A DNA stretch of 64,000 nt from Candidatus Thermoflexus tengchongensis (GCA_016842085.1 JAEVEX010000074.1:1-64000); one strand, 5' to 3'. Counted from the first letter of the stretch, positions 31,285 to 54,663 are shown. Translations and numbers: made by a program. The notes: generated from the letters alone by a model not told the origin.

Positions 31285-32499
31285 ATGGAAGAAGAGATGA
31301 AAGAAAGGAAAAGCAGGTGGCTGGAAGAGAGGGGGCTTCAGACGCTGGAGTGGGTGGCGATCGGGCTGGTGATCCTGGCCCTGATGGGGGCGGTGGCCTT
31401 CTGGATCACGTATCGAGCTTCGGAGTCGACCGGGCGGACAGTCGGGGAGACGATCGCGCATTTCTTTGAGTGCGTGAAGCGGATGGACCTTGACTGTGTC
31501 CGGGAGGGATTTGGGAGCGCCGGGCAGCCCCAGGCCCGTCGGGATCTGGGATGGTGTTTGACCCATCCCCTGGACTGCTGGCGGGAGGTGGTGTGGCCGG
31601 GGATTCAACGGGGGGCCAGGGCGTTCTGGGAGGGCGTGAAGTGGGTGAGGCGTCAGATCGCGGAGGCCGGACGGCAGGCATGGGCGTGGATAGGTCGGCA
31701 ATGGAATACATGGCTGAAAGGGGCCGTGGCCGGGTTGCTGGCGGCGATCGTGGTGATTGGCCTGATCGCTCTGGCAGTTTTGGGCGGATTGATCACGTTG
31801 CCTGTTGCTGTGATTGCCGCGATTCTGGTGCTGGTGACTACAATTGGGGTGGGGATCTGGCAGCAGATGCAGGGCAAGGGGTTCTGGGAATGCTTTAGCT
31901 TCGCCCTGATGGTGGGATTCCTGGTAGCTGGATTTGTGATCAGTCTCTCGGTGGCTCTGGCAGGTGGATGGGCGGGAATCACGAATTGGTTACTCGGTGC
32001 TCTCCGAAATTCCGTTATTGCTACTTTTTTCAATTTAACAATGAAACCCGAGATGATCGCTCAAGCATTCAAAGGAGATCAGAGTGTTCTACAGGAAATT
32101 GGTTTAATGTTCGCTTCCAATTTGCTTGTATCTCTATGTACCTTTGGATTCATGCAAGGGTTCAAAGCCAAACTTCCAGCGTTTAAAGGAAAGCCAGTCA
32201 ATTTAAATATCCTTATTAACCGAATTAAATGGACTTTTTCGACTCCGATAACAAGACAACTGTTTTTCTCTGTTATTTCGGTTATATCAGTGAACATCTT
32301 TGGATCTTATGCACAATCAAGGATGATGGGAAAGGATTTTGATCTTGGAGAAAGCTTGATAACCAGTGTGTTTATCCTTCCGATTGCCATTGGATTGGAC
32401 ACGACTGGGTGGAACAAGTGGGTTGTAGATTCAATTAAGACTGTTTCCAAATGGGCTATTAAAAATTTGTATAAGAATTCATTGGGAGGCAATAAATGA
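31285..32499 (+). CDS. Flp-prepilin fusion protein 1 (large variable C-terminus)
   Basis: This 404-residue protein has a Flp-type leader ending in G17, with LQTLEW after it (Glu at +5) and a membrane helix at about 24-43. The family signature follows: C63 to C71, then C91-LT-HP-LD-C98. A charged amphipathic linker (100-150) and a hydrophobic region (about 155-230) come next. Last is a mainly aliphatic C-terminal 180 residues with no recognised fold. The gene's base composition changes inside it: a 60-base sample is 67% GC at 31321 but 42% at 32041 and 35% at 32221. The last four bases (ATGA) start the next gene. TadV should process the leader. The C-terminal part may be an effector, an adhesive tip or a structural domain; I cannot tell. 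Confidence 0.7.
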   Translation: MEEEMKERKSRWLEERGLQTLEWVAIGLVILALMGAVAFWITYRASESTGRTVGETIAHFFECVKRMDLDCVREGFGSAGQPQARRDLGWCLTHPLDCWREVVWPGIQRGARAFWEGVKWVRRQIAEAGRQAWAWIGRQWNTWLKGAVAGLLAAIVVIGLIALAVLGGLITLPVAVIAAILVLVTTIGVGIWQQMQGKGFWECFSFALMVGFLVAGFVISLSVALAGGWAGITNWLLGALRNSVIATFFNLTMKPEMIAQAFKGDQSVLQEIGLMFASNLLVSLCTFGFMQGFKAKLPAFKGKPVNLNILINRIKWTFSTPITRQLFFSVISVISVNIFGSYAQSRMMGKDFDLGESLITSVFILPIAIGLDTTGWNKWVVDSIKTVSKWAIKNLYKNSLGGNK

Positions 32500-32813
32500 C
32501 AGATAAAGATGAAAAGATAAGTCTAATTCTAGGGGCAGTCGGGGCCATCTGGATGTTTGGAGGGCTTGTCCTCTTTACATTCCTGGCTCGATGGCTAAGG
32601 ACGGCATGGGGAATGACATACCCGGGGCTGGAAGAGGGATTAGCTGTTCTCTATATCATATCATTGGGGATTATTGTGGTGGCTTCTATTTATTTTCAGG
32701 TCCGATCTTATATCAAATCTGGCGATATATCTGGAATTATTTTGTTTGTTTTTCAGATAATTTTGATTTTTGTTCTCGGGCGGGCGATCTGGCAGCTTCT
32801 GCGCGGAGGATAA
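32496..32813 (+). CDS. Small membrane protein coupled to fusion protein 1 (candidate immunity partner)
   Basis: This 105-residue protein has three probable membrane helices (about 8-30, 49-68 and 78-99) and charged ends. It overlaps the preceding gene by four bases (ATGA) and shares its low GC content, so the two were probably acquired together. No family is recognised. By analogy with polymorphic toxin loci, a membrane immunity protein is a reasonable idea, but an accessory role in pilus assembly is also possible. The sequence shows only the coupling and the topology. Confidence 0.6.
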   Translation: MTDKDEKISLILGAVGAIWMFGGLVLFTFLARWLRTAWGMTYPGLEEGLAVLYIISLGIIVVASIYFQVRSYIKSGDISGIILFVFQIILIFVLGRAIWQLLRGG

Positions 32814-32960
32814 GGGATCGGGTGGGGAAGGGGCTTAAGATCGATGGGTTCATTCTACTTGCCCGGATGATCCTCCGCGTGTTCTGTCCCTGAAGGAGGC
32901 GTGGGAGCTCCTGGAATGGGGAGGACCCGGAGGGCGTTCTGGATGGGGGGAAGGGTTCCG

Positions 32961-33257
32961 ATGTCGGCACAGGATCGTGGAGGGGCTCGTTCGGGAACGC
33001 CGGGCCTGGGATGGCTGACTATCGGGTTGCTGGGGGTGATGATCGCCGGGCTGGCGGGAGGCCTGGATCTCAATCCCCTGGGGAGCTGGGCGATGACGGC
33101 GGTGGCCGCCATGGGTATGGCCTCGGGCCTCCTGTTGCTCTGGGAGAGCGGGCCGCCCCGGGAATCCCGGTCCGCTCGCTGGGCCCGCGTGCTCCTGCTG
33201 TTGCTGCCCATCGGGCTGCTGTGGCTGTGCCGGGCGATCGCCATGACCGCGCCTTGA
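32961..33257 (+). CDS. Small membrane protein, paralogue of the one at 46628
   Basis: The 98-residue protein has three hydrophobic stretches (about 16-35, 43-58 and 75-92). Its C-terminal half closely matches the 46628 product (LWESGPPRESRSARWARVLLLL there versus LWENGPARETRHARVLRVMLWL), so they are paralogues. Function is unknown. It lies in the cassette between fusion protein 1 and the large secreted protein at 33351. The start at 32961 is the best ATG, though an upstream start is not excluded. Confidence 0.55.
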   Translation: MSAQDRGGARSGTPGLGWLTIGLLGVMIAGLAGGLDLNPLGSWAMTAVAAMGMASGLLLLWESGPPRESRSARWARVLLLLLPIGLLWLCRAIAMTAP

Positions 33258-33350: not shown

Positions 33351-35318
33351 TTGCCTCTCCGTCGTCTCATCCAGATCCTTCCCTGTCTCGCGCTGGGGAT
33401 GCTGATCGTTCGCATCCATCCCGCTCCTGCCCTTGCGCAGGGGAGGGGCGATGCGGTGGACGTGGTGGTCGTGGCCGATCGCTCCGGCCGCGCGCCGGAT
33501 CCCGGGCTTCGCGACGCGATGGGGGATTTGCTGACCCTATGGGGCGCCACGGCCGCCCCCCAGGATCGGCTGTTCCTGTTGCGAGGCGGGCCCTTCCCCC
33601 GGATGATGGGGGAGGTTTTCTCCATGCGGGATGCGGAGGATCGGGTCGCCTTCCAGAGGATGCTTGCTCGCCTGGGCGGATTTGATCGAGGGGATGCCCG
33701 CTGGCCCTCGATCGCCCAGCTGGCGGTCCGCAGCTTGAGCAGACTTCCGGACCCCGCGCCTTCCAGCGGTTTGCTCGCGCTGGCTCGCGCCGATCCGGCG
33801 GATCCGGAGGTCCTGTCGTCGGCCGCCGCCTCTCTGGCAGGCCCACCCGCTCGCCCGTTCTTCGCGCTCTCGCTGGAGCAGAGTCTGGGCCGCCTGGACG
33901 CCACGCTGGCGAAAGCCTCCGGCGGCGTCGCGGCCATGGCCCCGCTGGATGAAGGACGTTACCCGGCGGCCCTCCGCCTCTGGGGGGCGCTCTCCCCCTA
34001 TCGCTGGACAACCTGGCTGGTGCTCCCTCCCGGGCTGGAGCAGCGCCTGGAGTTGCCCCCCGACACCGTCTGGGCCGCCTTTGTCCTCGTCCGTCCGTCT
34101 CCTTCCATCCGTCTGGTGAACCTGATCCATGAGGGCACGGACTGGCTGGGCCCCGCCGCTCAGGCGCGCATCCATCGGGTTTCCACCGATCGCCTGGAGA
34201 TCGTTACCCTGTTGACGTTCGGATCTTATGAGGGGGAGTGGCGCATCCGGTCGGAGGGAGAGCGGGAGGCCGGATTGGGCGTGGTGGTCAGTGTAAGAAG
34301 CCCCCTGCTTCCCCAGGAGCCGGCTCCAGCCCGTCGGTGGACGGTCCCTGCCGGCGCGCCTCTCTTCCTGGAGGCGATCGTCCCTCGCTGGCCGCCGGAC
34401 GCTGCCCTGGAGTGGCAGGCCGGGGATCTTCGGATCCCTCTGCGGGACGATGGGGGAGAAGCCGATCGGGAGGCGGGAGACGGGCGGGCCAGTGGCCTGT
34501 TCGATCCGGGCACCCTCTCCGGACGGGTGGAGGGGGCTTTCCGTTTGAGCTGGAAGGGAGGGATCTGGGAGCAGCCGGCATGGCTGGATCTGGAGCCGGA
34601 CCTCCCGATCCTGAAGGCTCAGGTTCCGATCTCCCCCACACCGGGCATGCCCATCACCATCACCGTGGATCGCCCGGACGGGGTGGAAACGGTGAGCTGG
34701 CGCTGGGCCGGATGGCGGCTGGGAAGCGCTCGTTATCAGCCTCCGGAGGCGGCGATCGCCGCTGAGTCGGGCTGGCAATGGACGTTCCGGACGCCAACGG
34801 GGGGGAAGGTCCGCTTCCTGGCCCTGGGGGAGGTGCGGACATCGACGGCGCGGGTCTATCCGCAGGCGGTCGTGGTGGATCTGGCGGTGGTCGCTCCCAC
34901 GGAGGGCCGTCTGTTCGTGACCATGGAGAAACGGCCGCAGCGCCTGACCCTGCCGGGGGAGCTCACCCTCGTGATCACCTCCACCCTGGATCGTCCCGCC
35001 CAGCTCCGCCTGGAGGTCGTGGAGGGGAAGGATCGGGTGCAGGTTATCCCCGCCCTGGTCCCGGTTCCTGCCCGGGAGGTGATCCGCCGGAAGATCCAGG
35101 TGCGCGGGGAGGGGATTTCGGATTCCCAGTCCATTCGGATCCGGGCGCGAGAGGAGAAAGGCGCCCCGGTGGAAGGGGGCGATCTCTCCCTTACGGTGAC
35201 CTCCGGTGGGGGAGGCGGGTTCTCGCCGGCCTGGCTCTGTCTGACTGCTGCGGTGGGGGCGGGCGGCTTTTTGCTCCTCCGGATCCTGATGCGGCGCTCA
35301 CGGGAGCGATGGCCATGA
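33351..35318 (+). CDS. Large extracytoplasmic protein with C-terminal membrane anchor (degenerate VWA-like start)
   Basis: The 655-residue protein has a signal peptide (residues 1-29, ending ALA-Q). A segment resembling the first strand of a VWA domain follows (VDVVVVADRSGR, with the MIDAS only partly conserved). Long beta-rich regions and a C-terminal membrane helix (about 628-648) complete it, leaving a short cytoplasmic RRSRERWP tail. It overlaps tadB by four bases (ATGA), so it belongs to the pilus operon. The start is a TTG with GGAGG five bases upstream. It may be an anchored assembly or TadG-like factor. A decayed piece of a related gene lies near 46.9-47.1 kb. Confidence 0.65.
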   Translation: MPLRRLIQILPCLALGMLIVRIHPAPALAQGRGDAVDVVVVADRSGRAPDPGLRDAMGDLLTLWGATAAPQDRLFLLRGGPFPRMMGEVFSMRDAEDRVAFQRMLARLGGFDRGDARWPSIAQLAVRSLSRLPDPAPSSGLLALARADPADPEVLSSAAASLAGPPARPFFALSLEQSLGRLDATLAKASGGVAAMAPLDEGRYPAALRLWGALSPYRWTTWLVLPPGLEQRLELPPDTVWAAFVLVRPSPSIRLVNLIHEGTDWLGPAAQARIHRVSTDRLEIVTLLTFGSYEGEWRIRSEGEREAGLGVVVSVRSPLLPQEPAPARRWTVPAGAPLFLEAIVPRWPPDAALEWQAGDLRIPLRDDGGEADREAGDGRASGLFDPGTLSGRVEGAFRLSWKGGIWEQPAWLDLEPDLPILKAQVPISPTPGMPITITVDRPDGVETVSWRWAGWRLGSARYQPPEAAIAAESGWQWTFRTPTGGKVRFLALGEVRTSTARVYPQAVVVDLAVVAPTEGRLFVTMEKRPQRLTLPGELTLVITSTLDRPAQLRLEVVEGKDRVQVIPALVPVPAREVIRRKIQVRGEGISDSQSIRIRAREEKGAPVEGGDLSLTVTSGGGGGFSPAWLCLTAAVGAGGFLLLRILMRRSRERWP

Positions 35319-36265
35319 CGGGGGCGGTGCAGGGCATCGGATATCTGGTCGGGTTGCTCCTGACCGGCATCCTGGCGGGCCTGGCGGTGGGGGCCCATCT
35401 GGTGCATTACCTGGAGCGCCGGGAGATCAGCGGCCGTGCTCAATCTCTGGTGGCTCGCTCCGCAGAGGCCCGCAGCTTCCTGCTGGATCTGGGGGCGCGT
35501 TTCGACGCCAGCCCACGGGGCCAACGGCTGGCCCGGCAGCTGGAGGCCGCGGACCTCTCGTTGCGGCCTCATGAGCTGCTGGCCCTTCAGGGGTTTGCGG
35601 TGTTCGTGGCCTTCTACCTGAACGCCCTGTTTCTTCACCTGGACCCCTTCCTGATCCTTTCCCTGGCGCTATTCGGCGTGCGCTTCGCGACCGGTCGCTA
35701 CCTGGCCCATCGAGCCCGACGCCGGGCGCTGCGCTTCGCCGAGCAGCTCCCGGAGGTGGCCGATACCCTGGCCCGGGGGCTGGGGGCCGGGCAGACGATT
35801 GTCCAGGCCATCGGGGAGGCGGCCGGCCGTCTCCCCCCGCCGGCTGCCGGAGCCCTCCGGCGGGTCTACCAGCAGCTTCTGCTGGGATACTCGCTGGGGG
35901 AGGCGCTTGAGCATCTCTATCAGCTCTATCCTTCCCCGGACCTGGAGCTGATGATCACCGCCATCCTGGCCCAGCAGCGGGCGGGCGGGAATCTGGCGCG
36001 GGTGCTGCAGCGCCTGGCGATCACAATGGCCGAACGCCGGAGCATGCAGCGGGAGATCCGCGCCCTCACCGAGGAGCCCCGCTTCAGCGCGATCCTGGTG
36101 ATCGCCCTTCCCCTCGCTTTCCTGCTCCTCTTTCGAACCATCATGCCGGGAATGGTGGATGCGCTGATCACCCAGCCCCTGGGCTGGGTCATCCTGGGGA
36201 TCAGCCTGGCCATGCAGATCGGGGGATTCCTGTTGATCCGTCGCATCACCCGGGTGGAGGTATGA
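35315..36265 (+). CDS. tadB: TadB-type pilus assembly membrane protein
   Basis: This 316-residue protein has an N-terminal helix, a central T2SSF (GspF) domain, and the characteristic motif LPEVADTLARGLGAGQTIVQAI (about 148-170). C-terminal membrane helices span 255-305. TadB forms the inner-membrane platform with TadC, above the TadA ATPase. The ATG at 35315 overlaps the upstream stop (ATGA). An ATG at 35309 in the same frame is an alternative. tadC follows after four bases. Confidence 0.9.
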   Translation: MTGAVQGIGYLVGLLLTGILAGLAVGAHLVHYLERREISGRAQSLVARSAEARSFLLDLGARFDASPRGQRLARQLEAADLSLRPHELLALQGFAVFVAFYLNALFLHLDPFLILSLALFGVRFATGRYLAHRARRRALRFAEQLPEVADTLARGLGAGQTIVQAIGEAAGRLPPPAAGALRRVYQQLLLGYSLGEALEHLYQLYPSPDLELMITAILAQQRAGGNLARVLQRLAITMAERRSMQREIRALTEEPRFSAILVIALPLAFLLLFRTIMPGMVDALITQPLGWVILGISLAMQIGGFLLIRRITRVEV

Positions 36266-36269: not shown

Positions 36270-37172
36270 TTGCTGGAGCTGTGGGCCTGCATGGGTTTGC
36301 TCACCGTGACCCTGGCCGCGGCCGCGGTCTGGCACTGGTCTGTTCCCTCGGAGACCCGGCTGCGTCTGGAACGGACTTACCCTATGGGGATCAGTGGTCC
36401 GTCTTTCTCGGAGCGCATCCACCGCTGGTCCCTCCGGCTGGCCCGCGAGGTCCCGGCGTTCTGGAGCCTGCTAGGGCGGGAACGCCTCGCCCGCACCCTG
36501 ACTCAGGCCGGACATCCCTACGGGTTGACGGTGGAGGCCTTCTACGGGATGCATATCCTGGGCGGCCTCGCCGGCGCTGCCCTGGGGGCTTTTCTCTATC
36601 TGATGGACATCCTGCTGGGCTTCGGCGGCTGCATGCTCATCTTCGCCGTTCTGTCCGTGGCCGGAGGATTTCTCGCCCCCACGTTCTGGATGAACCGCCT
36701 GATGGAGCGGCGTCAGAAACAGATCGATCTGGCCGTTCCAGATTTCCTCGACACTCTGGCGGTGTTGCTGGAAGCCGGCCTTGCTTTCGAGGCGGCGCTG
36801 CGTCACCTGGCCGACCGGCTGCGGAACCCTCTGGGGGAGGAGTTGCGCCGCTTCCTCCAGGAGCTGGAGATGGGGGTTCCGCGAATGGAAGCCTATCGGG
36901 GGCTGGTGGAACGTAACAGCGCCCCCGCTCTGCGGATCTGGGTGGAGGCGATGATGCAGGCCGAACGCCTGGGCCAGCCCCTCACGCCCACCGTCACCCG
37001 GATCGCCGCTGATATGCGCGCTCGCCGCATCCAGAAGGCCCGCGAATGGGTCGGCCGGGTGGGTCCGGTGGCTTCCATGCTGGTGGCCCTCATTATCGGG
37101 CCCGCTGTGATGTGCATGCTGGCCGGCGGCCTGATCCTTCAGCTTCTCGGCCAGGGGCTCGTCCCCCGTTAA
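36270..37172 (+). CDS. tadC: TadC-type pilus assembly membrane protein
   Basis: This 300-residue protein contains a T2SSF domain with the family core VPDFLDTLAVLLEAGLAFEAALRHLA (about 155-180). Membrane helices lie near 5-22, 95-135 and 275-295. It pairs with TadB in the inner-membrane platform. The start is a TTG with GGAGG about ten bases upstream; an in-frame ATG at 36291 is the alternative. It is directly behind tadB, and the WD40-type protein follows after 26 bases. Confidence 0.88.
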   Translation: MLELWACMGLLTVTLAAAAVWHWSVPSETRLRLERTYPMGISGPSFSERIHRWSLRLAREVPAFWSLLGRERLARTLTQAGHPYGLTVEAFYGMHILGGLAGAALGAFLYLMDILLGFGGCMLIFAVLSVAGGFLAPTFWMNRLMERRQKQIDLAVPDFLDTLAVLLEAGLAFEAALRHLADRLRNPLGEELRRFLQELEMGVPRMEAYRGLVERNSAPALRIWVEAMMQAERLGQPLTPTVTRIAADMRARRIQKAREWVGRVGPVASMLVALIIGPAVMCMLAGGLILQLLGQGLVPR

Positions 37173-39706: not shown

Positions 39707-39707
39707 G

Positions 39708-40421: not shown

Positions 40422-41662
40422 AGCGCCGGGCGCCGATGTGGCGGGTTCAGTATCTGACCGTCGCCCTGCTGGGGGCGATCACCGTTTATCTCAACCTGTT
40501 CATCAGCCTCCCCCGGGAGATCACCGGCATGCTGGAGCGTCAGGAGGCGCTGCATCGGGAGGCCTTCGCCGGGCTCCTCGGGGCTTACCTGCGGGCCCGG
40601 GAGCGCGACGGCGTCCCCCTCGAACAGGCCCTGCGGGAAGTGGGGCCATGGCTCACCGGCTACGCCTTCTACGCCTTCCCCCCGGAGGTCCCCGAGCTCC
40701 CGGTTGGGGTCTCCTCCCTGGGGGTCGCGCTTCCGGACGGCCGGCGGCTGGCGATCGGGTCGAATCCGGTGGGCTGCGCGGCGTGTTCGGCCCCGGGCTT
40801 CTGGATCCGGCTGTTTGGCCTTTCCATAGCGATCTGGCTGGCCCTGGTCGCCGTGCATTTGTGGCTCTGGATCCGGTTCTCGACATGGCTGAGAAGGATC
40901 CAGATGACGGCCCAGGCCATCGTCGCCGGGGAGGTCCATCCTCCGCTTCCGCCGGTCTCTCCGGACGAGCTGGGGCAGATCGCGGAGGCCCTGGGGCAGA
41001 TCGCCGCGGCCCTGGCCCGCTTCCGGGAAGCTCGCCGCCGCTTCCTGATGGCTGCCGCTCACGAGCTGCTCAATCCCCTCAGTGTCCTGGTTCGCGAGCT
41101 GGAAGATCTTCGAGCCCTCGGGCTGGTCGGGGAAGCGGCGGATCGGGCGCGACGGGCCCTGGACCAGGGGCGGCATCTGCAGCGCCTGATCGAGGATCTG
41201 CTCATCGCCGCCCGGGAGGACCAGGCGGCCTTCCCGATGCGGACGGAGCCGCTGGATCTGGCCGATCTCCTGGTTTCCGTGGTGGAAGCCTACGCGCCGC
41301 GCATCGAGGCCGGGGGGCGCAGGGTGAAGCTCCAGCTCCAGGCGGCTTCCCTTCCCATTCGTGGGGATCCCACCCGTCTGCGCCAGATCCTGGGGAACCT
41401 GCTGGAGAACGCCCTGCGATACAGCCGCCCGGGGGAGACCATCCAGGTGATCGCCGGACAGGGGGAGCGGGTGGTGGTGGAGATCTGCGGCGGGACGTCG
41501 GAGGCAGAGGGATCCGGACTGGGACTGGGGTGGGCCATCGTCGAGGAGCTCATGCGGGGGCATGGGGGATCCATGGAATTCCTGGAGGGGGCGGAGGGGG
41601 TCCTGCATGTCCGCCTCATCTTCCCGCTGGATCCCTCCGCCAGGGTTCCGCCGCCGGCATAA
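40418..41662 (+). CDS. Sensor histidine kinase with atypical ATP-binding domain
   Basis: This 414-residue protein has two membrane helices (about 12-32 and 131-152) around a small extracytoplasmic region with a CxxC pair (GCAACS). A HAMP-like helix follows, then the phospho-acceptor H215 (AAAHELLNPLSVL) and the N box (NLLENALRYS). The G1 box (DxGxG) and the F box are missing; only the G2 motif SGLGLGWAIV remains. The ATP lid is therefore unusually short. It may still be active, or it may work mainly as a phosphatase. It is coupled to the response regulator upstream and lies just before the prepilin peptidase gene, suggesting a role in pilus regulation. Confidence 0.82.
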   Translation: MKRRAPMWRVQYLTVALLGAITVYLNLFISLPREITGMLERQEALHREAFAGLLGAYLRARERDGVPLEQALREVGPWLTGYAFYAFPPEVPELPVGVSSLGVALPDGRRLAIGSNPVGCAACSAPGFWIRLFGLSIAIWLALVAVHLWLWIRFSTWLRRIQMTAQAIVAGEVHPPLPPVSPDELGQIAEALGQIAAALARFREARRRFLMAAAHELLNPLSVLVRELEDLRALGLVGEAADRARRALDQGRHLQRLIEDLLIAAREDQAAFPMRTEPLDLADLLVSVVEAYAPRIEAGGRRVKLQLQAASLPIRGDPTRLRQILGNLLENALRYSRPGETIQVIAGQGERVVVEICGGTSEAEGSGLGLGWAIVEELMRGHGGSMEFLEGAEGVLHVRLIFPLDPSARVPPPA

Positions 41663-41705
41663 CGGCGCAGCGCCCCTGCGCCCTTCTTTATCCGGGAGGC
41701 ATGCC

Positions 41706-42143
41706 ATGCATCCGGTAGAGATCCTTCTGCGAGCCGCGATGACGATCGGGGTGCTGATCGCCGCCGTCACCGACCTGCGGGCGCGGCGTATCCCGAACGC
41801 CTTCACCCTCCCGGCCATCGGGATCACCCTGGGGGTCCGGCTGGCGCAGGGGGAGGCGATCAGCGCCGTCGCCGGGGCGCTGATCGCGGCCCTCGTTTTT
41901 TTCCTTCCGGTGGCCATCGTAGGGCCGGAGCGGGCGGGGGCGGGGGATCTCAAGCTGGGGGTGGCCCTGGGGTTGCTCGCGGGGTTCCCCCGGGTGATCG
42001 AGCTGCTGCTGATCGCCTTCGGGGTCACCGCTATGGCCGGCCTGGTTCTGTGGATCGGCCGCCGCTTGCCGGCCGATCGAACCCTTCCGATGGCCCCCGG
42101 GCTGGCCCTGGGTGCCCTGTGGATCATGTGGGGCCCCGCCTGA
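41706..42143 (+). CDS. tadV: TadV/CpaA-type prepilin peptidase
   Basis: This 145-residue aspartic membrane protease removes the leader from Flp prepilins and pseudopilins. The catalytic aspartates are D23 (TDLRARRIPN) and D81 (GAGDLKLG, the GxGD motif). There are about four membrane helices and no methyltransferase domain, as is usual for TadV. It is directly upstream of the flp gene, which has its own promoter. It is expected to process the canonical Flp, the large Flp fusions and the TadE-like protein in this window. Confidence 0.9.
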   Translation: MHPVEILLRAAMTIGVLIAAVTDLRARRIPNAFTLPAIGITLGVRLAQGEAISAVAGALIAALVFFLPVAIVGPERAGAGDLKLGVALGLLAGFPRVIELLLIAFGVTAMAGLVLWIGRRLPADRTLPMAPGLALGALWIMWGPA

Positions 42144-42312: not shown

Positions 42313-42567
42313 ATGATGCGCAAGGTGATGGACCGGATGGTGGAGGGGTATGTCCGTCTTCGCGTGGGGCTGGGGGGCCTCGTGGAGGACGCCCGCGGCC
42401 TCCAGACCCTGGAGTGGGTGGCGCTGGCCATCGTCATCCTGGCCCTGCTGGGTGCAGTTGCAGCTATTGTGGGCAAGCAGGATAGTGGCGTGGCCCAGGC
42501 GGTGGCGAATGCGATCCAGAATTTCTTCGAGAGGCTCCTCGCCTGGGAATGGAAAAGTGCCAAGTAA
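42313..42567 (+). CDS. flp: Flp pilin (canonical major pilin)
   Basis: This is an 84-residue prepilin. The leader ends at G29 and the mature part starts LQTLEW, with Glu at +5, followed by a hydrophobic helix (35-55). The second position after Glu is Trp rather than the usual Phe or Tyr. The mature pilin is about 55 residues, the normal Flp size. AAGGAGGTGA precedes the ATG, and a second ATG follows directly. It lies after the prepilin peptidase gene behind its own regulated promoter and ends in a strong terminator, so it is probably highly expressed. Confidence 0.9.
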   Translation: MMRKVMDRMVEGYVRLRVGLGGLVEDARGLQTLEWVALAIVILALLGAVAAIVGKQDSGVAQAVANAIQNFFERLLAWEWKSAK

Positions 42568-42800: not shown

Positions 42801-43589
42801 ATGCGGCGGTGGGCGAAAGGGGAGCGAGGCTTATAGACGCTGGAGTGGGTGGCGATCGGGCTGATGATCCTGGCCCTGAGGGGGGCGGTGGCGCTGGTCC
42901 TGGCCCGTCCCTCGACGGGGGCGGGGGAGGCGGTGGCGGAGGCCATCGCGCGGATGTTCTGGTGTCTCACGGACGCCCGGGGTTGCCCGGGGGCGGGGGA
43001 GGGGAACGCCTTTGGGGCGAACCCGCCGGGGGCGAATCCACTGGGAGAGAACATGCCGGATCGGACGTGATGTGGAACCCATCCGGTGTGGTGTGTCTCG
43101 AATGTGGGAAAGGGGGTGGCGGATCGATGGGAAGATGCGACCCAGGGGTTCAGACAGGTGTGGGAGGGCTCGAAGGCCCCAGTGCAGGGAGTATGGGGGA
43201 AAGTTTGGAACATTGTCCTGGCTTCGATGGTAGGTATGCTCATGCTTCTCGGAACTGGATTTCTGGCTGATCGGAGGCTTCCCGGAGATCCAGGGAACGG
43301 GAATGGTTCCGGAATCTCCTTCCCGAAACGGGTATTAGCTGTTGCTATGTTGGTGCCATTTCTTTTGCTTGTCGATGTCTCGCTGTTCCTTCTCACGTTA
43401 AGCAACACGGTCTTCTTGTTGACCTCTCCTGACCCCTCATCCAGGATCCTGGCTCTATCTGCAGAGGTCATTCTCATCATCGGTGACCTGTTCCTGGTTT
43501 TTGTGCACGTGCAGCTCGTTCATTGGGCGATCACGGGGAGGTGGATACGAAGTGTAAAGGATATGACGGACTGGTCGTTGCGGCCGTGA
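42801..43589 (+). pseudogene. Flp-prepilin fusion gene with two in-frame stop codons
   Basis: The frame from the ATG at 42801 encodes a Flp-type leader (MRRWAKGERGL) and then TAG (42834-42836) where the intact relatives have CAG. TLEWVAIG follows. A second stop, TGA (43068-43070), replaces the TGG (Trp) before the CxxHPxxC motif. After it the frame reads CGTHPVWC and continues to a hydrophobic C-terminus ending at 43589. Both changes are single transitions in an otherwise intact frame. The C-x6-C motif (CLTDARGC) and Gly/Pro-rich linker are preserved. It is probably a recently inactivated copy. Readthrough of both stops is possible but unlikely. Confidence 0.8.
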
Positions 43590-43620
43590 GGGGGTGGAGA
43601 AGCGCCCTGGGAGGGAGGCG

Positions 43621-43977
43621 ATGGCCTTGTGGAGCGGGTTTTGCTTCAGCGGGCTCTATCCGCAATCTGGACCTCTGGGGACCTTGCCCCCCGGGTCCGG
43701 GAGGCCGCTCTGGCAGCGAGCGCTCACGATCCTTCCGGCCCTGACGGGCTTTCTGGTGCTCGATGGGACCCTGGCGGCTCTGACCGTTGCGAACTCGCTG
43801 GCTCGGATGGCAGCCCCGGATTCGGTCTCGAAGGGCGTTCGGGTGGTGAACGAGCGGACCCTGGTGGAGGCGGATGGGGTGGTGGCCTGGGCGCATCTTT
43901 CCCATGCTCACCGAGTATGGACCGGGCGTCCGATCCGGTCGTGGAGGGATCTTCGAGATGGGAGGCCGCGGCCATAG
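43621..43977 (+). CDS. Small protein resembling the C-terminal part of the fusion pseudogene at 42801
   Basis: This is a 118-residue product. Its C-terminal 80 residues resemble those of the preceding pseudogene (TGRPIRSWRDLRDG versus TGRWIRSVKDMTDW near the ends), but it lacks the Flp leader and helix. The hydrophobic middle stretch suggests membrane contact. It may be an orphan C-terminal module or a partner protein. ATG 43621 follows GGAGGGAGG; a GTG at 43594 in the same frame is an alternative. The 3' end of the gene is also found duplicated at 48235-48301. Confidence 0.5.
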   Translation: MALWSGFCFSGLYPQSGPLGTLPPGSGRPLWQRALTILPALTGFLVLDGTLAALTVANSLARMAAPDSVSKGVRVVNERTLVEADGVVAWAHLSHAHRVWTGRPIRSWRDLRDGRPRP

Positions 43978-44040: not shown

Positions 44041-45048
44041 ATGATCCGGAGGTGGATGCGGGGATCGAAGGGCTTGCAGACGCTGGAGTGGGTGGCGATC
44101 GGGCTGGTGATCCTGGCCCTGATGGGGGCGGTGGCGCTGGTCCTGGCCCGTCCCTCGACGGGGGTGGGGGAGGTGGCGGCGGAGGCCATCGCGCGGATGT
44201 TCCGGTGTCTTACGGATGTTTCGGCCTGCATCGGGCTGGCATCCGGGGCGACTCCGGTTTCGATATGGGCGGCGGTGGGGGAATGCTTCATGCATCCGGA
44301 GCGCTGTATTGTGCGGTGGTGGACGTGCTGGCGGCAGGGGACGTGTGGGCCGGCGGACTGGGTGGGGTTGCTGGGGTTGCTGCCCTGGCTGTTGACGCCC
44401 TTTGGGGTGCTGGCGGTCGGCATTCGGGCGGTGCCGATCCCGTGGTGGAAGCGGGCGGGAGATCTCGTTAACTCCTGGCTGGATGAGGCTGTCGGGTTGT
44501 ATCAGACGGTGCGGGATATCCTGAAGGTGCGGCACCTGCAGTTCATCCGCCGACCGGGAGGCAGGGTGAGCATCCGGGCCCTGAAGCCGCCCGGAGCCCG
44601 GGAGGCGTATCGGGTGGGGCTTCGGTCTGATTGGGAATTTATCTCCCGTCGAGGAGGGCTTTATAAGCCCGGGACGATTGCGGCGGGGACAGCGAAGGGA
44701 TTGCTGAAGTCCTCGGTTTCGAAGGGAAGCCTGATCACCAGTGCAGTGGTGTCGCTGGTGCAGAACCTGTGGACCTTTGGGACGGATCCTTCTCAGGGGG
44801 CGACTTTCTGGGATCGGACGGTGAAGAACCGGAAGTTCTGGATTTCGACGGGGGTGGATTTCGCCCTCAGCGTGGCCACCGGCGTGGCCGCCGCCGCGAT
44901 CGTGGGCGGTGTTCTCGTTGCCACCGCTGCCACCTCGCCTCTTGCAGTTGCAATAGGGCTTACATTTGTGGCATCGGTTTTGCTGAGCATGGCCCTGGAT
45001 CAACTGGGTGTTCCGGATCGGATCAAATCCTGGCTGGGGGGGCGGTGA
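44041..45048 (+). CDS. Flp-prepilin fusion protein 2
   Basis: This 335-residue protein has the leader MIRRWMRGSKG, then LQTLEW (Glu16 at +5), a membrane helix (about 18-36), C56-x6-C63 and C82-FM-HP-ER-C89. The C-terminal 190 residues contain basic segments, then Gly/Ala/Val-rich hydrophobic helices (ATGVAAAAIVGG, then LAVAIGLTFVASVLLSMA). They end SWLGGR at the stop. The hydrophobic hairpin pattern resembles C-termini of polymorphic toxins, but I cannot assign a family. The 5' half is almost identical to the gene at 48365. The ATG of the next gene begins one base after the stop, so they are coupled. GGAGGAGGCGAAGG precedes the start. Confidence 0.7.
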   Translation: MIRRWMRGSKGLQTLEWVAIGLVILALMGAVALVLARPSTGVGEVAAEAIARMFRCLTDVSACIGLASGATPVSIWAAVGECFMHPERCIVRWWTCWRQGTCGPADWVGLLGLLPWLLTPFGVLAVGIRAVPIPWWKRAGDLVNSWLDEAVGLYQTVRDILKVRHLQFIRRPGGRVSIRALKPPGAREAYRVGLRSDWEFISRRGGLYKPGTIAAGTAKGLLKSSVSKGSLITSAVVSLVQNLWTFGTDPSQGATFWDRTVKNRKFWISTGVDFALSVATGVAAAAIVGGVLVATAATSPLAVAIGLTFVASVLLSMALDQLGVPDRIKSWLGGR

Positions 45049-45049: not shown

Positions 45050-45724
45050 ATGGTTCGGTGGCGTAAGCTTTCTCGAAAGCGGCGCTCGGAGATCCTGTGG
45101 GGGATCGCCGGGTTCTTATATTTGCTGATCATCCTTCCTTTCCTGGCGTGGATGGCGAATTCGGCGCGGCTTCGGAACTTCAACCGTTTCCCCTCCTGGG
45201 CGGAGATCTTCCCCGCTTTCCTCATCAGCCCGCTGGTCCTGGTGGCGCGGCTCAGCGGGGAACGGCGGGGGTGGATCCCCTGGCTGTCCCGAACGCTGTG
45301 GATGGGGATTGCGGGTCTGTGGGTCCTCTCCTATCCGGTGGTTTACTGGCCGCTGCTTCTGCCGAAGGGGTGGGGGTGGGTTCCTGTCGTCACCTATGGG
45401 CTGGGGCTGGTCATCGGCCTGGCCTATGGGTGGTGGCGCGGGTGGGATGCGCTGACGGATCGCCTGGAGCGGATGCTCTGGGTGGTGGCTCTGTTCAGCG
45501 GTGGGAGCGCGGCGGGTCCGCTGGGGGCGCATCTGGGGATGCAGGCCTCCCGTTCGGGGGGGTATGGGCTGGTGGATGTTTTGCTGATCCTGGTGATGAC
45601 GGGGATCGGATACTGGGCGTTTTTTGCGGGGATCGCCCAGAACTGGCATCTGCGCCCCCTGGGCTTGCGCCTCGGGGCGAGGGCGGCGTCGGGCCTGGGG
45701 GAGGAGCCGGGGATGAAATCCTAA
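45050..45724 (+). CDS. Multi-pass membrane protein, paralogue of 49470
   Basis: This 224-residue protein has about six membrane helices and a basic N-terminus (MVRWRKLSRKRRSEI). It is nearly identical to the product at 49470 over most of its length. No family is recognised. It starts one base after the stop of fusion gene 2 and is probably its functional partner, perhaps a membrane immunity or assembly protein. The ATG at 45050 was preferred over an upstream start inside fusion gene 2. Confidence 0.6.
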   Translation: MVRWRKLSRKRRSEILWGIAGFLYLLIILPFLAWMANSARLRNFNRFPSWAEIFPAFLISPLVLVARLSGERRGWIPWLSRTLWMGIAGLWVLSYPVVYWPLLLPKGWGWVPVVTYGLGLVIGLAYGWWRGWDALTDRLERMLWVVALFSGGSAAGPLGAHLGMQASRSGGYGLVDVLLILVMTGIGYWAFFAGIAQNWHLRPLGLRLGARAASGLGEEPGMKS

Positions 45725-45754: not shown

Positions 45755-46060
45755 ATGATCTCCCCCAATCGGACCGAGATGATGTGGTTTGCCCTGGGCC
45801 TGGTGTGGTTTGTCCTGGTGGGCCCTCTCTTGATCGGGCTATCGATGGAGTTGGGCTTATGGCCGAAGCTGTCGTTCTGGATCGCCTTCCTCTATGTCCT
45901 GATCTGGGTTCTGCTAACGGGGATAGGGTTTTCTCTTTACTCGCGCCGTGTGGCCCGGGAGATGGGGATGGGAGGTCTGGTGGTGACGGTGATCTGGATC
46001 GGGCTGGCGATCCTGCTGGCCCGGGGGCTTCTGGTGGCTTTTCGCTTGGTGGGGCACTGA
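45755..46060 (+). CDS. Small membrane protein, tandem copy 1
   Basis: This 101-residue protein has three probable membrane helices (about 11-30, 38-58 and 75-95). The last 40 residues are almost the same as those of the next copy at 46276, and 88 bases of DNA are identical (45942-46029 versus 46463-46550). The N-termini differ (NRTEMMWFALGLVWFVLV versus DRREMTLIILSFVWFFVI). Function is unknown. Its place behind fusion 2 makes it a candidate partner or immunity protein. Confidence 0.55.
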   Translation: MISPNRTEMMWFALGLVWFVLVGPLLIGLSMELGLWPKLSFWIAFLYVLIWVLLTGIGFSLYSRRVAREMGMGGLVVTVIWIGLAILLARGLLVAFRLVGH

Positions 46061-46275: not shown

Positions 46276-46581
46276 ATGATCTCTCCAGATCGAAGGGAGA
46301 TGACGTTGATTATCCTGTCATTTGTATGGTTTTTTGTGATAAGTCCCCCTTTGCTATGGCTGTCTATACGTTTGGGGTCGCCTCCCACGACGAGGGTCTG
46401 GATAGGGTGGGCCGTTTTCTTGATTTTTGCCCTGCTGGGTGGGACAGCGGTTTTTCTCTATACGCGCCGTGTGGCCCGGGAGATGGGGATGGGAGGTCTG
46501 GTGGTGACGGTGATCTGGATCGGGCTGGCGATCCTGCTGGCCCGGGGGCTGCTGTCGGCTCTTCGCTCGATGGGGCACTGA
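46276..46581 (+). CDS. Small membrane protein, tandem copy 2
   Basis: This 101-residue paralogue of the gene at 45755 has the same three-helix layout and an identical 3' stretch. The N-terminal two thirds have diverged, and the 5' part is less GC-rich. Function is unknown. The 215 bases between the two copies (46061-46275) hold no gene I can support. An AGAGGAAG precedes the start. Confidence 0.55.
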   Translation: MISPDRREMTLIILSFVWFFVISPPLLWLSIRLGSPPTTRVWIGWAVFLIFALLGGTAVFLYTRRVAREMGMGGLVVTVIWIGLAILLARGLLSALRSMGH

Positions 46582-46627: not shown

Positions 46628-46888
46628 ATGGGATACTGGATGGGGTTGACGCTGGGCCTTCTGGGGACACTGGTCGTGGGCCTGGCGACCGGTGTGGATC
46701 GCGATCCCTCTGGCCGCTATGCCATGGCCGTCATCGCGGCCCTGACGCTGGTGGCAGGGATTGGGGTCCTCTGGGAGAACGGGCCAGCGAGGGAGACCCG
46801 GCACGCTCGGGTTCTCCGGGTGATGCTCTGGCTGTTGCCAGTCTTCCTGTTCCTGCTGTGCCGTGTCATCGCGCTGGCTGCTCCATAG
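46628..46888 (+). CDS. Small membrane protein, paralogue of 32961
   Basis: This 86-residue protein has three hydrophobic stretches (about 5-22, 30-47 and 63-80). It is a paralogue of the 98-residue protein at 32961, which follows the fusion-1 cassette. Its presence here, followed by a decayed piece resembling the 33351 gene, suggests that a block like 31.3-33.5 kb once existed at this place. Function is unknown. GGAGGATG precedes the ATG. Confidence 0.55.
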   Translation: MGYWMGLTLGLLGTLVVGLATGVDRDPSGRYAMAVIAALTLVAGIGVLWENGPARETRHARVLRVMLWLLPVFLFLLCRVIALAAP

Positions 46889-46907: not shown

Positions 46908-47126
46908 GCTCCCCTGCGATCCGGATGGATCCCCCTCGTTCTCGTTCTGGTGCGGGTGTTTCGGTCTCCCATGTCGGGAGTGGCTGCTCCGTCAAATGAG
47001 GATCCGTTGGGAAGGGTTCCGGATCCGGGGCTCCGGGAGCGGAGGACGGATCTCCTTCTTCTCTGGACCGCCGCCTCGCCCTTTGATCGGATCCTGCGGA
47101 TTCGGTCTGGCCTCTTGCCCCACCTT
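46908..47126 (+). pseudogene. Decayed fragment related to the gene at 33351
   Basis: The translation of this stretch includes GRVPDPGLRERRTDLLLLWTA. It matches GRAPDPGLRDAMGDLLTLWGA near the start of the 33351 product, in the same relative position to the paralogous small gene upstream. It has no start, and the similarity ends after about 40 residues. It is best read as a remnant of a duplicated cassette. Confidence 0.5.
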
Positions 47127-47142
47127 CTCATCGACCCTTCTC

Positions 47143-47181
47143 TTTATTTTGATAACAGGGATTGGATTTCACGATACAGTA
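47143..47181 (+). pseudogene. 5' remnant of a 49133-like gene, cut by the IS element
   Basis: Thirty-nine bases match 49157-49195 (about 36 identical by eye), which encode the start of the first membrane helix (LFILITGIGFH). The match stops exactly at the TA that borders the IS element. The rest of the gene is missing on the other side. Confidence 0.5.
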
Positions 47182-48232
47182 GACTCGTTGCACAATAAGA
47201 GCAGAAGAGGGATGCCCTATGCATTTCCGAATGGATCAAGCCTTTTCGAGTGCCAAGCGTTCTTGAGTCCGACGGTTCACGATGGCGGCCACAAGGATAA
47301 AGATGGCATCGTGAATCTCGAGACTATGACGGAAGCGTTCACTCAGCGCCCGAAACTGTTTTATCTGCGCCAGGACATGTTCTATCACGATGCGCACGCG
47401 GGACAACTCCCGGTTCATCAACTTCTGATCCGCTGTCAAGGGATGGTTGCGCCGCGCCTTGTGGGGGGTAGCCACACTGTGGAGGGGCAAATCCTTATGC
47501 AGACCGTCAAAGCCGGCGTCGCCCATCACCCCAACCTCCTGGGGAATCCGCCTCAGGACACCCGACTCCCGAAAGTGACGCAGGTCGTGCACCGAACCGG
47601 GGGTCGAGGGAGTCACCGCGCGAATCAGCCCCTCTTCGTTCACGACCAGACCGTTCTTAACCGTGTGCCGCTTCTTCTTGCCCGAGTAGAACACCCGCTG
47701 GCGTTCGGGATCCGCAGGCCGCTGTATGGGTTGCTCCGTCCCATCCAAAATGGCGAACAGGTCGGGGCAAGTGGCCAGCATTTCGGGCAGGTCCTTCCCC
47801 CGCGAGGGCGGGTCGGGCCATTCCATCTCCCCCTCCGGGACCTGACGCAACACCGCCAGAATCCGCCGCCCATTGCGACTCACCGTGGCCTTGTCCACCC
47901 CAAACAGCGCGGCCAAGGCCGCCGTCGACAAGTAGAGCCGCACCCACATCATCGTCATCAACAGGTAGGTCGCCAGGTCCAACTTGTAAGCGCGTCCCGC
48001 TCCCACGGCTCGCTGCCGGTCCGGTCGGCTCAGGCGTTTCCGTTCCGCTTCTTCCCAAACCGGCAAGAAACGCTTGCACAGCTCTTCGAATTCCTCACGG
48101 CTCAGGCCTGTAAGAGCTCTCAGAGCTTCAGGACGGCGCTTCAGGATGTCACACCGGAGCATTCTTCCTCCCCTCGCCTCGTGAGGTTGGGAAGAATATT
48201 GTCCTCCATTCCTCCCTACTGTGCAACGACTC
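47182..48232 (-). mobile_element. IS5-superfamily insertion sequence, 1051 bp
   Basis: The ends carry imperfect inverted repeats: GACTCGTTGCACAATA at 47182 and, read inward from 48232, GAGTCGTTGCACAGTA. Both ends are bordered by TA (47180-47181 and 48233-48234), fitting a two-base target duplication. One transposase gene fills the element. The flanks belong to different genes, so an adjacent deletion or recombination probably occurred after insertion. Confidence 0.8.
47236..48162 (-). CDS. IS5-type DDE transposase
   Basis: This 308-residue transposase has an N-terminal helix-turn-helix region (residues 70-110, ALFGVDKATVSRNGRR). A DDE-superfamily endonuclease domain follows, with aspartates in FAILDGTEQPI and VMGDAGFDG. 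The glutamate is in IEHVLAQIKQFRAL. The catalytic set looks complete and the frame is uninterrupted, so the element may be active. The family is the HARBI/IS5 type (DDE_4). The start is the ATG at 48162, 70 bases inside the element's right end. Confidence 0.85.
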   Translation of the reverse strand: MLRCDILKRRPEALRALTGLSREEFEELCKRFLPVWEEAERKRLSRPDRQRAVGAGRAYKLDLATYLLMTMMWVRLYLSTAALAALFGVDKATVSRNGRRILAVLRQVPEGEMEWPDPPSRGKDLPEMLATCPDLFAILDGTEQPIQRPADPERQRVFYSGKKKRHTVKNGLVVNEEGLIRAVTPSTPGSVHDLRHFRESGVLRRIPQEVGVMGDAGFDGLHKDLPLHSVATPHKARRNHPLTADQKLMNRELSRVRIVIEHVLAQIKQFRALSERFRHSLEIHDAIFILVAAIVNRRTQERLALEKA

Positions 48233-48364: not shown

Positions 48365-49129
48365 ATGATCCGGAGGTGGATGCGGGGATCGAAGGGCTTG
48401 CAGACGCTGGAGTGGGTGGCGATCGGGCTGGTGATCCTGGCCCTGATCGGGGCGGTGGCGCTGGTCCTGGCCCATCCCTCGACGGGGGCGGTGGAGGCGG
48501 TGGCGGAGGCCATCGCGCGGATGTTCCGGTGTCTTACGGATGTTTCGGCCTGCATCGGGCTGGCATCCGGGGCGACTCCGGTTTCGATATGGGCGGCGGT
48601 GGGGGAATGCTTCATGCATCCGGAGCGCTGTATTGTGCGGTGGTGGACGTGCTGGCGGCAGGGGACGTGTGGGCCGGCGGACTGGGTGGGGTTGCTGGGG
48701 TTGCTGCCCTGGCTGTTGACGCCCTTTGGGGTGCTGGCGGTCGGCATTCGGGCGGTGCCGATCCCATGGTGGAAGCGGGTGGGAGATCGCGTCTACTCCG
48801 GCTCGATAAAGCTGCCGGGTTGTTCCAGTGACAGTAGGGATATCGGGAAAGGACAGCCTCTGAGCCCAGAGGAGCAGATAGGCTTGATTGTAACAGGTGG
48901 AGCGGTTGTAATTGGTTTTACATTTGCTGAACTCACGCTCGCTATATTGGGAGTTGCAGCAGCGCATGCAGGTCCTCCGGGTGTTGTTTTTGATATCCTG
49001 ATTATCTTCCCTATCGAGCTATTTTTAATAGATATGGAGGTATCAATTATAGTTTCAATTTATCGAAGCATCTCCACAGGTAAGAAACAGCCTGTAATCC
49101 TGCTTCCGCCATGGGGACTGGAGGAATAA
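48365..49129 (+). CDS. Flp-prepilin fusion protein 3 (chimeric C-terminus)
   Basis: This 254-residue protein has the same leader, membrane helix, C-x6-C and CFMHPERC signature as fusion 2. The DNA is about 98% identical to 43916-44462 (11 mismatches by eye over some 545 bases). After residue 140 (VPIPWWKR) it switches to an unrelated 115-residue C-terminus with aliphatic helices (GLIVTGGAVVIGFTFAELTL, then LIIFPIELFLID). The new part is AT-rich: a 60-base sample is 30% GC at 49021 against 72% at 48421. It was probably joined by recombination. The next gene starts three bases after the stop. Confidence 0.7.
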   Translation: MIRRWMRGSKGLQTLEWVAIGLVILALIGAVALVLAHPSTGAVEAVAEAIARMFRCLTDVSACIGLASGATPVSIWAAVGECFMHPERCIVRWWTCWRQGTCGPADWVGLLGLLPWLLTPFGVLAVGIRAVPIPWWKRVGDRVYSGSIKLPGCSSDSRDIGKGQPLSPEEQIGLIVTGGAVVIGFTFAELTLAILGVAAAHAGPPGVVFDILIIFPIELFLIDMEVSIIVSIYRSISTGKKQPVILLPPWGLEE

Positions 49130-49132: not shown

Positions 49133-49414
49133 ATGAAAGTATCTTCAATTGTTCTGTTTATTTTGATAACAGGGATCGGATTTCACGCTACAATATATTC
49201 TGCGTATTTTCTGCGTTATCGGGCTTACTTCTCGCCTTTCTTCTCGGCTTGCATTGTAGCGGGGATTTGGGGCTTGACATGGTTTCTGGCGGTCACCGTC
49301 CCGGCGGGTTTTGTAAAGGATTCCGTTGTAGTGGGGAGTTTGCTGGCCTTGCCCCATCTTGTCATCAGCCACATCATGGCCCGGATTTGGTTTCAGGCTG
49401 GGGGGCGAAGGTGA
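49133..49414 (+). CDS. Small membrane protein coupled to fusion protein 3 (candidate immunity partner)
   Basis: This 93-residue protein has three probable membrane helices (about 4-24, 33-56 and 62-85). It is AT-rich at its start like the end of fusion 3, and begins three bases after it, so the two form one module. A fragment of a related gene is at 47143-47181. No family is recognised. An immunity role is inferred from position and topology only. Confidence 0.6.
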   Translation: MKVSSIVLFILITGIGFHATIYSAYFLRYRAYFSPFFSACIVAGIWGLTWFLAVTVPAGFVKDSVVVGSLLALPHLVISHIMARIWFQAGGRR

Positions 49415-49468: not shown

Positions 49469-49469
49469 G

Positions 49470-53150: not shown

Positions 53151-53508
53151 GGGAGCGAGATTCCATCAGGAAATGCCCGCGCCAGCCCATGGCGATCCAT
53201 TGGGGGGGTGGGCTCCGCCTGGAGGGGAGGTGGGCCGGAAGACGGCACAGGTTGTATCGATCAAACAGGGGTTGTAACGTTCGGTTAACGCAGGGGGAGA
53301 TCGCCCGGATTAAGATGGGAAAGGAGGTCCCGTTGCTCTGGACGGGATGGATCATGCCGATCGCATTCAGGCATAAGGGGGGAGGGGCGACCCGCTGGAT
53401 CGCCCCCACCTGCTGTTTCGGTGTCCGGGGATCCGGATTGGCGTGGGCAGGATCGCAGCCCGGGGAGGTTGTTTCTGTGTCCACCGCATAGGCATGAGGA
53501 GGTGAACG
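53151..53508 (+). other. Intergenic region before fusion gene 4
   Basis: The 358 bases hold no gene I can support. The regulated promoter is at 53273-53316 and the ribosome binding site GAGGAGGTGA lies just before 53509. The transcript would have a leader of about 180 bases. Confidence 0.5.
53273..53316 (+). promoter_or_regulatory. Activated promoter of fusion gene 4: 11-bp direct repeats plus -10 box
   Basis: TGTAAC (53273-53278) and GTTAAC (53284-53289) lie 11 bases apart, and TAAGAT (53311-53316) starts 27 bases after the second repeat. Layout, spacing and the following GGGA are the same as upstream of flp (42206-42249). This points to one OmpR/PhoB-type regulator for both genes. Confidence 0.6.
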
Positions 53509-54663
53509 ATGCTGCGGAGGTGGATGCGGGGATCGAAGGGAGTGCAGACGCTGGAGTGGGTGGCGCTGGCGCTGGTGGTGCTGGCGCTGATTGGGGCGGT
53601 GACGGCCTGGATGAACGGGCCGGGGGGCGTCCAGGTGGCAGCGCCGATCCAGCAGGCGTTGCAACGGTATGCGTGGTGTCTGGAGGGTGCCGGGGGGTGC
53701 CCGGGGGCGGGAGGGGGAAGTCCCTTTGGGACGAATCCGCCGGGCGTCCGGCCTCCTGGGGTGAACCCGCCGGGAGGGAACCCACCCGGGAATCCACCGG
53801 GAGGGAAGCCGCCGGATCTGGGGTGGTGCGTGACCCATCCGGGGGATTGTCTCTCGAATTTGGGGAAGTGGGCGGCGGATAAGTGGGAGGATGTGAAACG
53901 GGGGGCTGGACAGGCATGGGAGGGCCTGAAGTCCACGGCGGAGGGTGTATGGAAATGGCTGGATGAGCATAAGGGGATCGTGGCGGGGGTTGTAGTTGGC
54001 CTGGCTGCTGCCGGTCTGATCTTGGCGACTGGCGGCCTGGCCCTTCCGGTGGTCCTGACAGCCCTGGCGGCGGGAGGAGGCGCTTTCCTGTTCGGTTGGC
54101 TCTATCAGCAATCGGGCCCCAAACCGGGCCTGCAGGGGTGGTTGGAGGCCTTCGCGCTTGCTGGCATAGGAGCGGTCATGGGTTATCTGGTCGCCCATGG
54201 TGGGGCTATGTTATTGAAAGAGGTTGGCTTGTCAGGTATTCTCCGCCTATTCGTTAGCAAGGGCATCATTGGAGGTGTTTCATCAGGAATTAGTTATTTG
54301 ATACTTACTCCGCCGGATCAGCGATCGTGGATTGGGGCGGGCGTAGCGATTGGAAGTGGGATCATAACAGAGATGCTCGCATGGCCAGCGGCGAAAGCGG
54401 CTGTGGTATCCATTGCTGGGGCGATAGAGGCCGCGCGCCGGAAGGAGCTGACTTGGCAGACCCCGGTACGGGCGTTTGGCCAATCCTTCTTTCTGGAACA
54501 GCCTGGGAGCAAAGTGTATAACCGGGTCTTCGGCCGGGGTGTGGGGAAGGGCCTCGGGTGGCTTTCGGGTAAAGGGATTTCCATATCTCCGCCCAATTTC
54601 GTAATGCGGGTCGCGAACCGGGTCTCCTGGGATGTGATCAAGAGCAAACTGTTTGGGATGTAA
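53509..54663 (+). CDS. Flp-prepilin fusion protein 4
   Basis: This is a 384-residue protein. The leader ends at G11, followed by VQTLEW with Glu16 at +5 and a membrane helix (18-34). C57-x6-C64 is followed by a Pro/Gly/Asn-rich linker (65-102) and C107-VT-HP-GD-C114. An amphipathic segment (116-150) and hydrophobic Gly/Ala-rich helices (155-215) follow. The C-terminal 170 residues are mixed and end near VIKSKLFGM. DNA after about 54180 is less GC-rich (48% in a 60-base sample). It has its own predicted promoter, so it may be co-regulated with flp. Two paralogous small membrane genes and a truncated third follow, starting 15 bases after the stop. Confidence 0.72.
   Translation: MLRRWMRGSKGVQTLEWVALALVVLALIGAVTAWMNGPGGVQVAAPIQQALQRYAWCLEGAGGCPGAGGGSPFGTNPPGVRPPGVNPPGGNPPGNPPGGKPPDLGWCVTHPGDCLSNLGKWAADKWEDVKRGAGQAWEGLKSTAEGVWKWLDEHKGIVAGVVVGLAAAGLILATGGLALPVVLTALAAGGGAFLFGWLYQQSGPKPGLQGWLEAFALAGIGAVMGYLVAHGGAMLLKEVGLSGILRLFVSKGIIGGVSSGISYLILTPPDQRSWIGAGVAIGSGIITEMLAWPAAKAAVVSIAGAIEAARRKELTWQTPVRAFGQSFFLEQPGSKVYNRVFGRGVGKGLGWLSGKGISISPPNFVMRVANRVSWDVIKSKLFGM

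Follow-up and report, generated by a model that had tools for sequence, protein, structure and literature searches.

Trafficking modes of polymorphic toxin systems were catalogued in 2012, in passages that contain neither the word pilin nor the word pilus (PMC3482391). Flp pilins are named as carriers of the ARC (CD38-like) toxin domain in one phrase of a list (PMC12605009). For Kil, the Tad-like machine of Myxococcus xanthus, the first report described the toxin as still to be found (PMC8460266). The means by which Tad-like machines kill, and any delivery of toxins by them, become directly testable through fusions of prepilins to toxin-type domains that are accompanied by partner genes. Here, we analyse a 64,000-nucleotide stretch of DNA from Candidatus Thermoflexus tengchongensis (GCA_016842085.1 JAEVEX010000074.1:1-64000), referred to as the window, which derives from contig C47 of a 3.9 Mb draft genome (class Anaerolineae, phylum Chloroflexota). 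Within its tad locus lies an array of large Flp-prepilin fusion genes with small membrane-protein genes beside them. We consider it likely that this array consists of polymorphic toxin/immunity cassettes in which the Tad (Flp) prepilin is the trafficking part and which probably act on membranes.

Four intact fusion genes, designated A to D, and one pseudogene were located where the initial annotation had placed them, with the pseudogene start now given as 42796. Lengths are in amino acids (aa).

31285..32499, + strand: A, Flp-prepilin fusion, 404 aa, mature 387
42796..43589, + strand: pseudogene of the fusion kind, with internal TAG and TGA
44041..45048, + strand: B, Flp-prepilin fusion, 335 aa, mature 324; residues ~141-335 form a shared polymorphic-toxin-type domain
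48365..49129, + strand: C, Flp-prepilin fusion, 254 aa, mature 243; duplicate of B with the C-terminus exchanged
53509..54663, + strand: D, Flp-prepilin fusion, 384 aa, mature 373

All carry the hallmarks of a prepilin, namely a short leader ending in G, followed by a hydrophobic helix with E at +5. The leader of A, B and C ends in G directly before LQTLEW, and that of D directly before VQTLEW, which confirms the leader and membrane helix reported for the four intact genes. Further downstream, in a short neck ahead of the long C-terminus, a first cysteine pair is spaced C-x7-C in A and C-x6-C in B, C, D and the pseudogene, and a second motif, CxxHPxxC, is present in all five. The proposed signature therefore holds throughout the window, but its HP motif is not invariant in relatives of the same genus: it reads CxxNPxxC in A of genome G002 and CxTQPxxC in G004 and G006 fragments, and D of G002 lacks the second cysteine motif altogether. 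Two stop codons interrupt the pseudogene, a TAG in frame within the leader motif and a TGA just ahead of the second cysteine motif.

Flp/Tad prepilins have approximately 50-60 mature residues. At 243-387 mature residues, the window proteins lie far outside this range, as had been recognised, and a separate ordinary Flp, which the initial annotation did not list, is encoded in the same locus; for these two reasons they are called Flp-prepilin fusions here rather than Flp. The Pfam profile Flp_Fap does not match them, and scans of the window proteins with Pfam, NCBIfam and PADLOC assigned the fusions to no family. Their C-termini are hydrophobic and rich in membrane spans, and a gene for a small multi-span membrane protein stands immediately after each. 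The earlier description of these ends as largely unalike stands, although B and C, which are recent duplicates, hardly differ up to residue ~141.

A profile of the N-terminal region retrieves the window fusions and their long orthologues with E values of 1e-23 to 1e-48. In 298 genomes of the class, it gave no comparable match beyond the genus; at most 16 candidates were scored per genome, and rare distant cases could thus escape. On both counts, the likeness of the N-termini is not due to chance. The genus is represented by nine genomes. Four of them (G000, G002, G004 and G006) combine a closely related tadC (78-88% identity) with fusions, present as fragments only in G006; the other five have a distant TadC alone (~35% identity) and no fusion. 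The initial annotation had named two observations that would speak against it, a single uniform C-terminal family and fusions in genomes without a Tad machine. Neither was made: the C-termini do not form a uniform family, and fusions occur in 4/4 genus members with this tad locus and in 0/5 without it. The six longest-looking Flp frames inspected from 141 Chloroflexota genomes included no comparable fusion, five being open frames upstream of a normal Flp. In the sixth, a Flp continues into a TadE-like stretch (G383, L128:1850-2818), through either a fusion or a frameshift.

A trace of C-terminal exchange lies between B and C, together with the following transmembrane (TM) protein genes and remnants.

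45050..45724, + strand: B2, 224 aa, multi-TM, directly after B (one base past the B stop), putative immunity protein
49133..49414, + strand: C2, 93 aa, 3 TM, putative immunity protein of C, within the exchanged segment
49470..50144, + strand: C3, B2 copy retained downstream of C
47010..47195, + strand: fragments of a vWA-like gene (33351) and of C2, a cassette remnant

Comparison of the DNA with itself identified B and C as duplicates. Identity is 95.7% over the 606 bases that hold the upstream region and N-terminus (43915-44520 versus 48239-48844) and 90.6% over 646 bases of the downstream flank (45028-45673 versus 49448-50093). Between these flanks lie 507 and 603 unrelated bases, respectively, which encode the C-terminus in B and, in C, both an unlike C-terminus and the small gene C2. 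The downstream flank carries B2 at B and its copy C3 at C. To judge from the sequence, this pattern is the trace expected if a toxin end and its immunity gene were exchanged at a common carrier.

The C-terminus of B is shared with eight other Anaerolineae genomes, where it sits on unrelated carriers. A first profile, built from the B C-termini of the window and G004 only and searched against 350 genomes of the phylum, matched G133 (E 1e-31), G535 (1e-25) and G150 (2.5e-5). A widened profile, applied to 251 genomes of the relatives' order, added G869, G779, G845 and G775 (1.8e-31 to 6e-12), along with a weaker match in G888 (2e-5) and a short partial match in G720. When both genus sequences were removed, the profile of the remaining members still scored B at 146 bits, and the C-termini of A, C and D, serving as negatives, scored at most 1.9 bits. 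In G150, the domain is preceded by an RHS core (TIGR03696, 39.4 bits against a cut-off of 32.5) and belongs to a tandem series of RHS ends with differing C-termini. This series (L101:3000-6140), one end of which carries DUF6973 (Pfam, E 1.6e-23), is an Anaerolineae RHS cassette array in its own right. The domain terminates a repeat-and-linker protein in G133, stands alone in a row of similar pairs in G535, and terminates secreted-looking proteins in G869, G779, G845 and G775, of which two carry both Big and LysM domains and a third carries Big domains. Plasmid sequences searched by tblastn with two B-type C-termini gave no match; of two scans of named genomes, the first found none and the second only G133 and G535 again. 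A sequence search of the PDB with the C-termini of B and D returned chance matches only.

In all seven readable loci (G133, G535, G150, G779, G845, G775 and G888), the gene after the domain encodes a multi-TM protein of 190-213 aa, the corresponding gene of G869 being lost at a contig end. Leave-one-out profiles placed these partner genes in one family, with G535b marginal, and B2 matches them in place and size. In G888 (L119:750-2310), two similar multi-span partner genes follow the domain, a further case of a doubled partner.

Because the same domain occurs on other surface carriers, such as the LysM/Big proteins, and because the size and hydrophobicity of the C-termini are high for a pilus subunit, the fusions could also be read as membrane-anchored surface toxins. 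The Flp segment would then be a signal anchor, and the genes would form true toxin/immunity pairs that are not moved by Tad. We regard this as unlikely, since the prepilin cleavage site and helix are nearly unchanged in all copies and the genes lie within the tad locus and track its presence or absence.

Beyond B and C, the partner genes of A and D suggest further rounds of replacement.

32496..32813, + strand: A2, 105 aa, 3 TM, overlapping the A stop, putative immunity protein of A by position and topology
32901..33257, + strand: X, small 3-TM protein, start uncertain, kept after A in G002; paralogue at 46628
45755..46060, + strand: B3, orphan 3-TM gene, related to the G002 post-A gene (BLASTP E 2e-12)
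46276..46581, + strand: B4, paralogue of B3 (60%)
46628..46888, + strand: B5, paralogue of X
54679..55014, + strand: D2, 111 aa, putative immunity protein of D
55087..55422, + strand: D3, paralogue of D2, 83% identical to the G004 post-D gene
55488..55585, + strand: fragment of another D2 copy
55646..55942, + strand: D4, distant paralogue of D2 (BLASTP E 5e-12)

Between the window and G002, identity is 78% for TadC, 57% for the N-terminus of A and 37% over a partial match of its C-terminus. BLASTP detected no similarity between A2 and the G002 post-A gene, which instead resembles two window genes, B3 (E 2e-12) and B4 (1e-9). These two follow B2 without an effector of their own, beside a duplicate of X and a piece of the vWA-like gene, both of which normally stand after A; the window thus seems to keep orphan partners of the sister species' type of A. 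Compared with G004 in 30-residue segments, D is ~73-100% identical except at residues 226-300 (56-67%), and the G004 post-D gene is 71% identical to D2 and 83% to D3. On the few genomes at hand, the simplest reading would be a replacement that took in part of D together with its partner and left the earlier partner in place. Spare partner copies in the window comprise B3, B4, C3, D3 and D4, plus one fragment.

It is hardly credible that the fusions are decaying pilin duplicates joined to neighbouring sequence without a selected function. One pseudogene, an insertion sequence (IS) and gene fragments are indeed present, but four frames are intact, and B and D are ~85% identical to their G004 counterparts over the full length with frames kept, at a TadC identity of 86%. 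The end of the pseudogene and the next open reading frame (ORF), together 43086-43977, are paralogous (30%), and several degenerate module copies occur at the matching place in G004.

43594..43977, + strand: ORF paralogous (30%) to the pseudogene end

A different proposal takes the fusions as variable minor pilins, large Flp-like subunits that serve as exchangeable tips or adhesins, with the small membrane genes as assembly partners. The tips of Kil consist of minor pilins in complexes that can be interchanged, with ends that vary and numerous predicted disulfides (PMC12075869), and the fusions likewise have paired cysteines and lie inside a tad locus. However, Kil tips are TadE/F/G-like rather than Flp, and no immunity gene is described in that account. 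The C-terminus of B also occurs on RHS and surface carriers without a pilin, the C-termini are hydrophobic and span-rich, and a role in assembly hardly accounts for spare partners that lack an effector (B3, B4, D3, D4). We find this proposal improbable. Of the initial suggestion that the prepilin carries variable effectors or adhesins, the homology of B to a domain of RHS and surface carriers thus favours effectors, and adhesins are less favoured.

Returning to toxin/immunity cassettes, the features expected of polymorphic toxins can be traced as follows. A shared N-terminus with exchangeable C-termini was found in the B/C cassette and in A compared with G002; a C-terminal domain on other carriers was found for B; and adjacent and orphan putative immunity genes were recognised by position, topology and paralogy only. 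The putative effector assignment is supported by homology for B and by pattern for A, C and D (cassette swap, co-varying partner, orphan copies). Since the C-termini are hydrophobic and their partners span the membrane several times, membrane action is a guess made by analogy with EsxX, TspA and TelE. From this evidence we infer toxicity, immunity and export by this Tad machine. We lean somewhat towards a Tad pilus that uses its own subunits as polymorphic toxins, with toxin-bearing prepilins assembled or displayed as a contact weapon. In such a scheme, the prepilin part would be inserted in the membrane and cut by TadV between G and LQTLEW, and the TadA/B/C motor would incorporate the cut prepilin into the pilus, or show it there, alongside ordinary Flp. 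When a rival cell is touched, the C-terminus would enter and disturb its cytoplasmic membrane, while the adjoining small membrane protein would shield that of the producer. New pairs of C-terminus and immunity gene may arrive by recombination at the conserved N-terminus and the conserved downstream flank, and displaced immunity genes may persist as orphans.

Several observations weigh against these proposals. B2 has no similarity to the relatives' partner family that profiles could detect, so its putative immunity role rests on place, size and topology. As wholes, B and D are no more diverged from G004 than TadC. In the genomes searched, the C-termini of A and D have no relatives on other carriers: that of A matched nothing in 131 genomes, a set without a positive control, and the eight weak matches to that of D inspected from the 350 phylum genomes were all unrelated proteins or antisense frames. 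For the C-terminus of C and the pseudogene end, the search for relatives was confined to the genus. An extended glycine zipper near the C-terminus, typical of known membrane-depolarising toxins, is not supported as the mechanism, GxxxGxxxG being absent from A, B and C and only mildly enriched in D, at four against one expected. AlphaFold models of the B C-terminus and of D were unusable, with predicted local distance difference test (pLDDT) values of 36-38. It is questionable whether a Tad machine could pass a 300-residue, span-rich subunit, and the comparisons as a whole draw on few genus genomes in draft assemblies.

The tad locus spans 17990-56998 of the window, with tad genes on both sides of the fusion array; profile matches comprise RcpC, T2SSE, two T2SSF, Peptidase_A24, TadE and Tad.

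17990..18739, + strand: RcpC/CpaB-like Tad assembly protein (Pfam RcpC, E 1e-19)
18794..20137, + strand: TadZ/CpaE-like ATPase (AAA_31/ParA matches)
28682..31186, + strand: TadA/CpaF motor, two T2SSE ATPase domains in a single polypeptide (Pfam T2SSE, two stretches, E 3e-112)
35309..36265, + strand: TadB (T2SSF), profile match
36270..37172, + strand: TadC (T2SSF), profile match; orthologues in G002, G004 and G006
41562..42143, + strand: TadV prepilin peptidase (Peptidase_A24), profile match; true start probably internal
42313..42567, + strand: canonical short Flp, 55 mature residues, without C-terminal extension
47236..48162, - strand: IS transposase (DDE_Tnp_4), profile match
55998..56396, + strand: TadE-like minor pilin, profile match
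56390..56998, + strand: TadE/G-like protein, profile match

The TadA/CpaF-like motor is an 834-residue chain with two full T2SSE domains, the halves being ~70% identical (DNA, 690 bases); to our knowledge, two ATPase domains in one chain are unusual for a Tad motor. Directly upstream of it (20173-26335), translations read as protein kinase-like, FHA/vWA-like and PP2C-like genes, and FHA proteins are present in the Kil cluster too. A response regulator and a histidine kinase-like gene (39645-41662) lie within the tad locus beside the prepilin peptidase. A second piece of the same tad locus, 78% identical, occurs on a short contig of the draft genome (L066, G000:C8:1-6930) and stems either from a second such locus or from a related strain caught in the same bin.

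If the toxin-prepilin pilus is real, it would constitute a trafficking route distinct from the type V, VI and VII secretion systems (T5SS, T6SS and T7SS) and PVC, and a single locus would preserve the record of several rounds in which toxin/immunity pairs were replaced. A pilus machine would double as a weapon, and pilus subunits would join the toxin carriers, with genomic detail. The locus resembles the polymorphic toxin systems described by Zhang et al. (2012, PMC3482391) in having a trafficking N-terminus common to its members, C-termini that can be exchanged, immunity genes, here putative, both next to the toxin genes and in spare arrays, and recombination of cassettes, and differs in that the trafficking part is a Tad prepilin. 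With the membrane-depolarising LXG toxins EsxX, TspA and TelE (PMC12744356, PMC7456083, PMC10434224) it shares hydrophobic C-terminal toxin domains, membrane immunity proteins and orphan immunity genes, all putative here, but those toxins have a T7SS carrier, and their shared glycine zipper is not convincing here. Kil (PMC8460266, PMC12075869) links a Tad machine to contact-dependent killing and has variable minor pilins. Its variable parts, however, are KilLMN/TadE-G minor pilins that depend on a complex like the type III secretion system (T3SS), no toxin domain or immunity gene was identified there, and the trimeric tip has a TadE/F/G-like pilin where the window fusions have N-termini that are Flp-type by motif. 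The ARC fusions (PMC12605009) are alike in using a Flp pilin as toxin-domain carrier; they differ in carrying an enzymatic domain, and the phrase that names the Flp cases comes with no analysis of a tad locus, array, swap or immunity. Since Flp pilins have already been listed once as toxin carriers, the new part would be a polymorphic toxin array with a Flp prepilin as its carrier.
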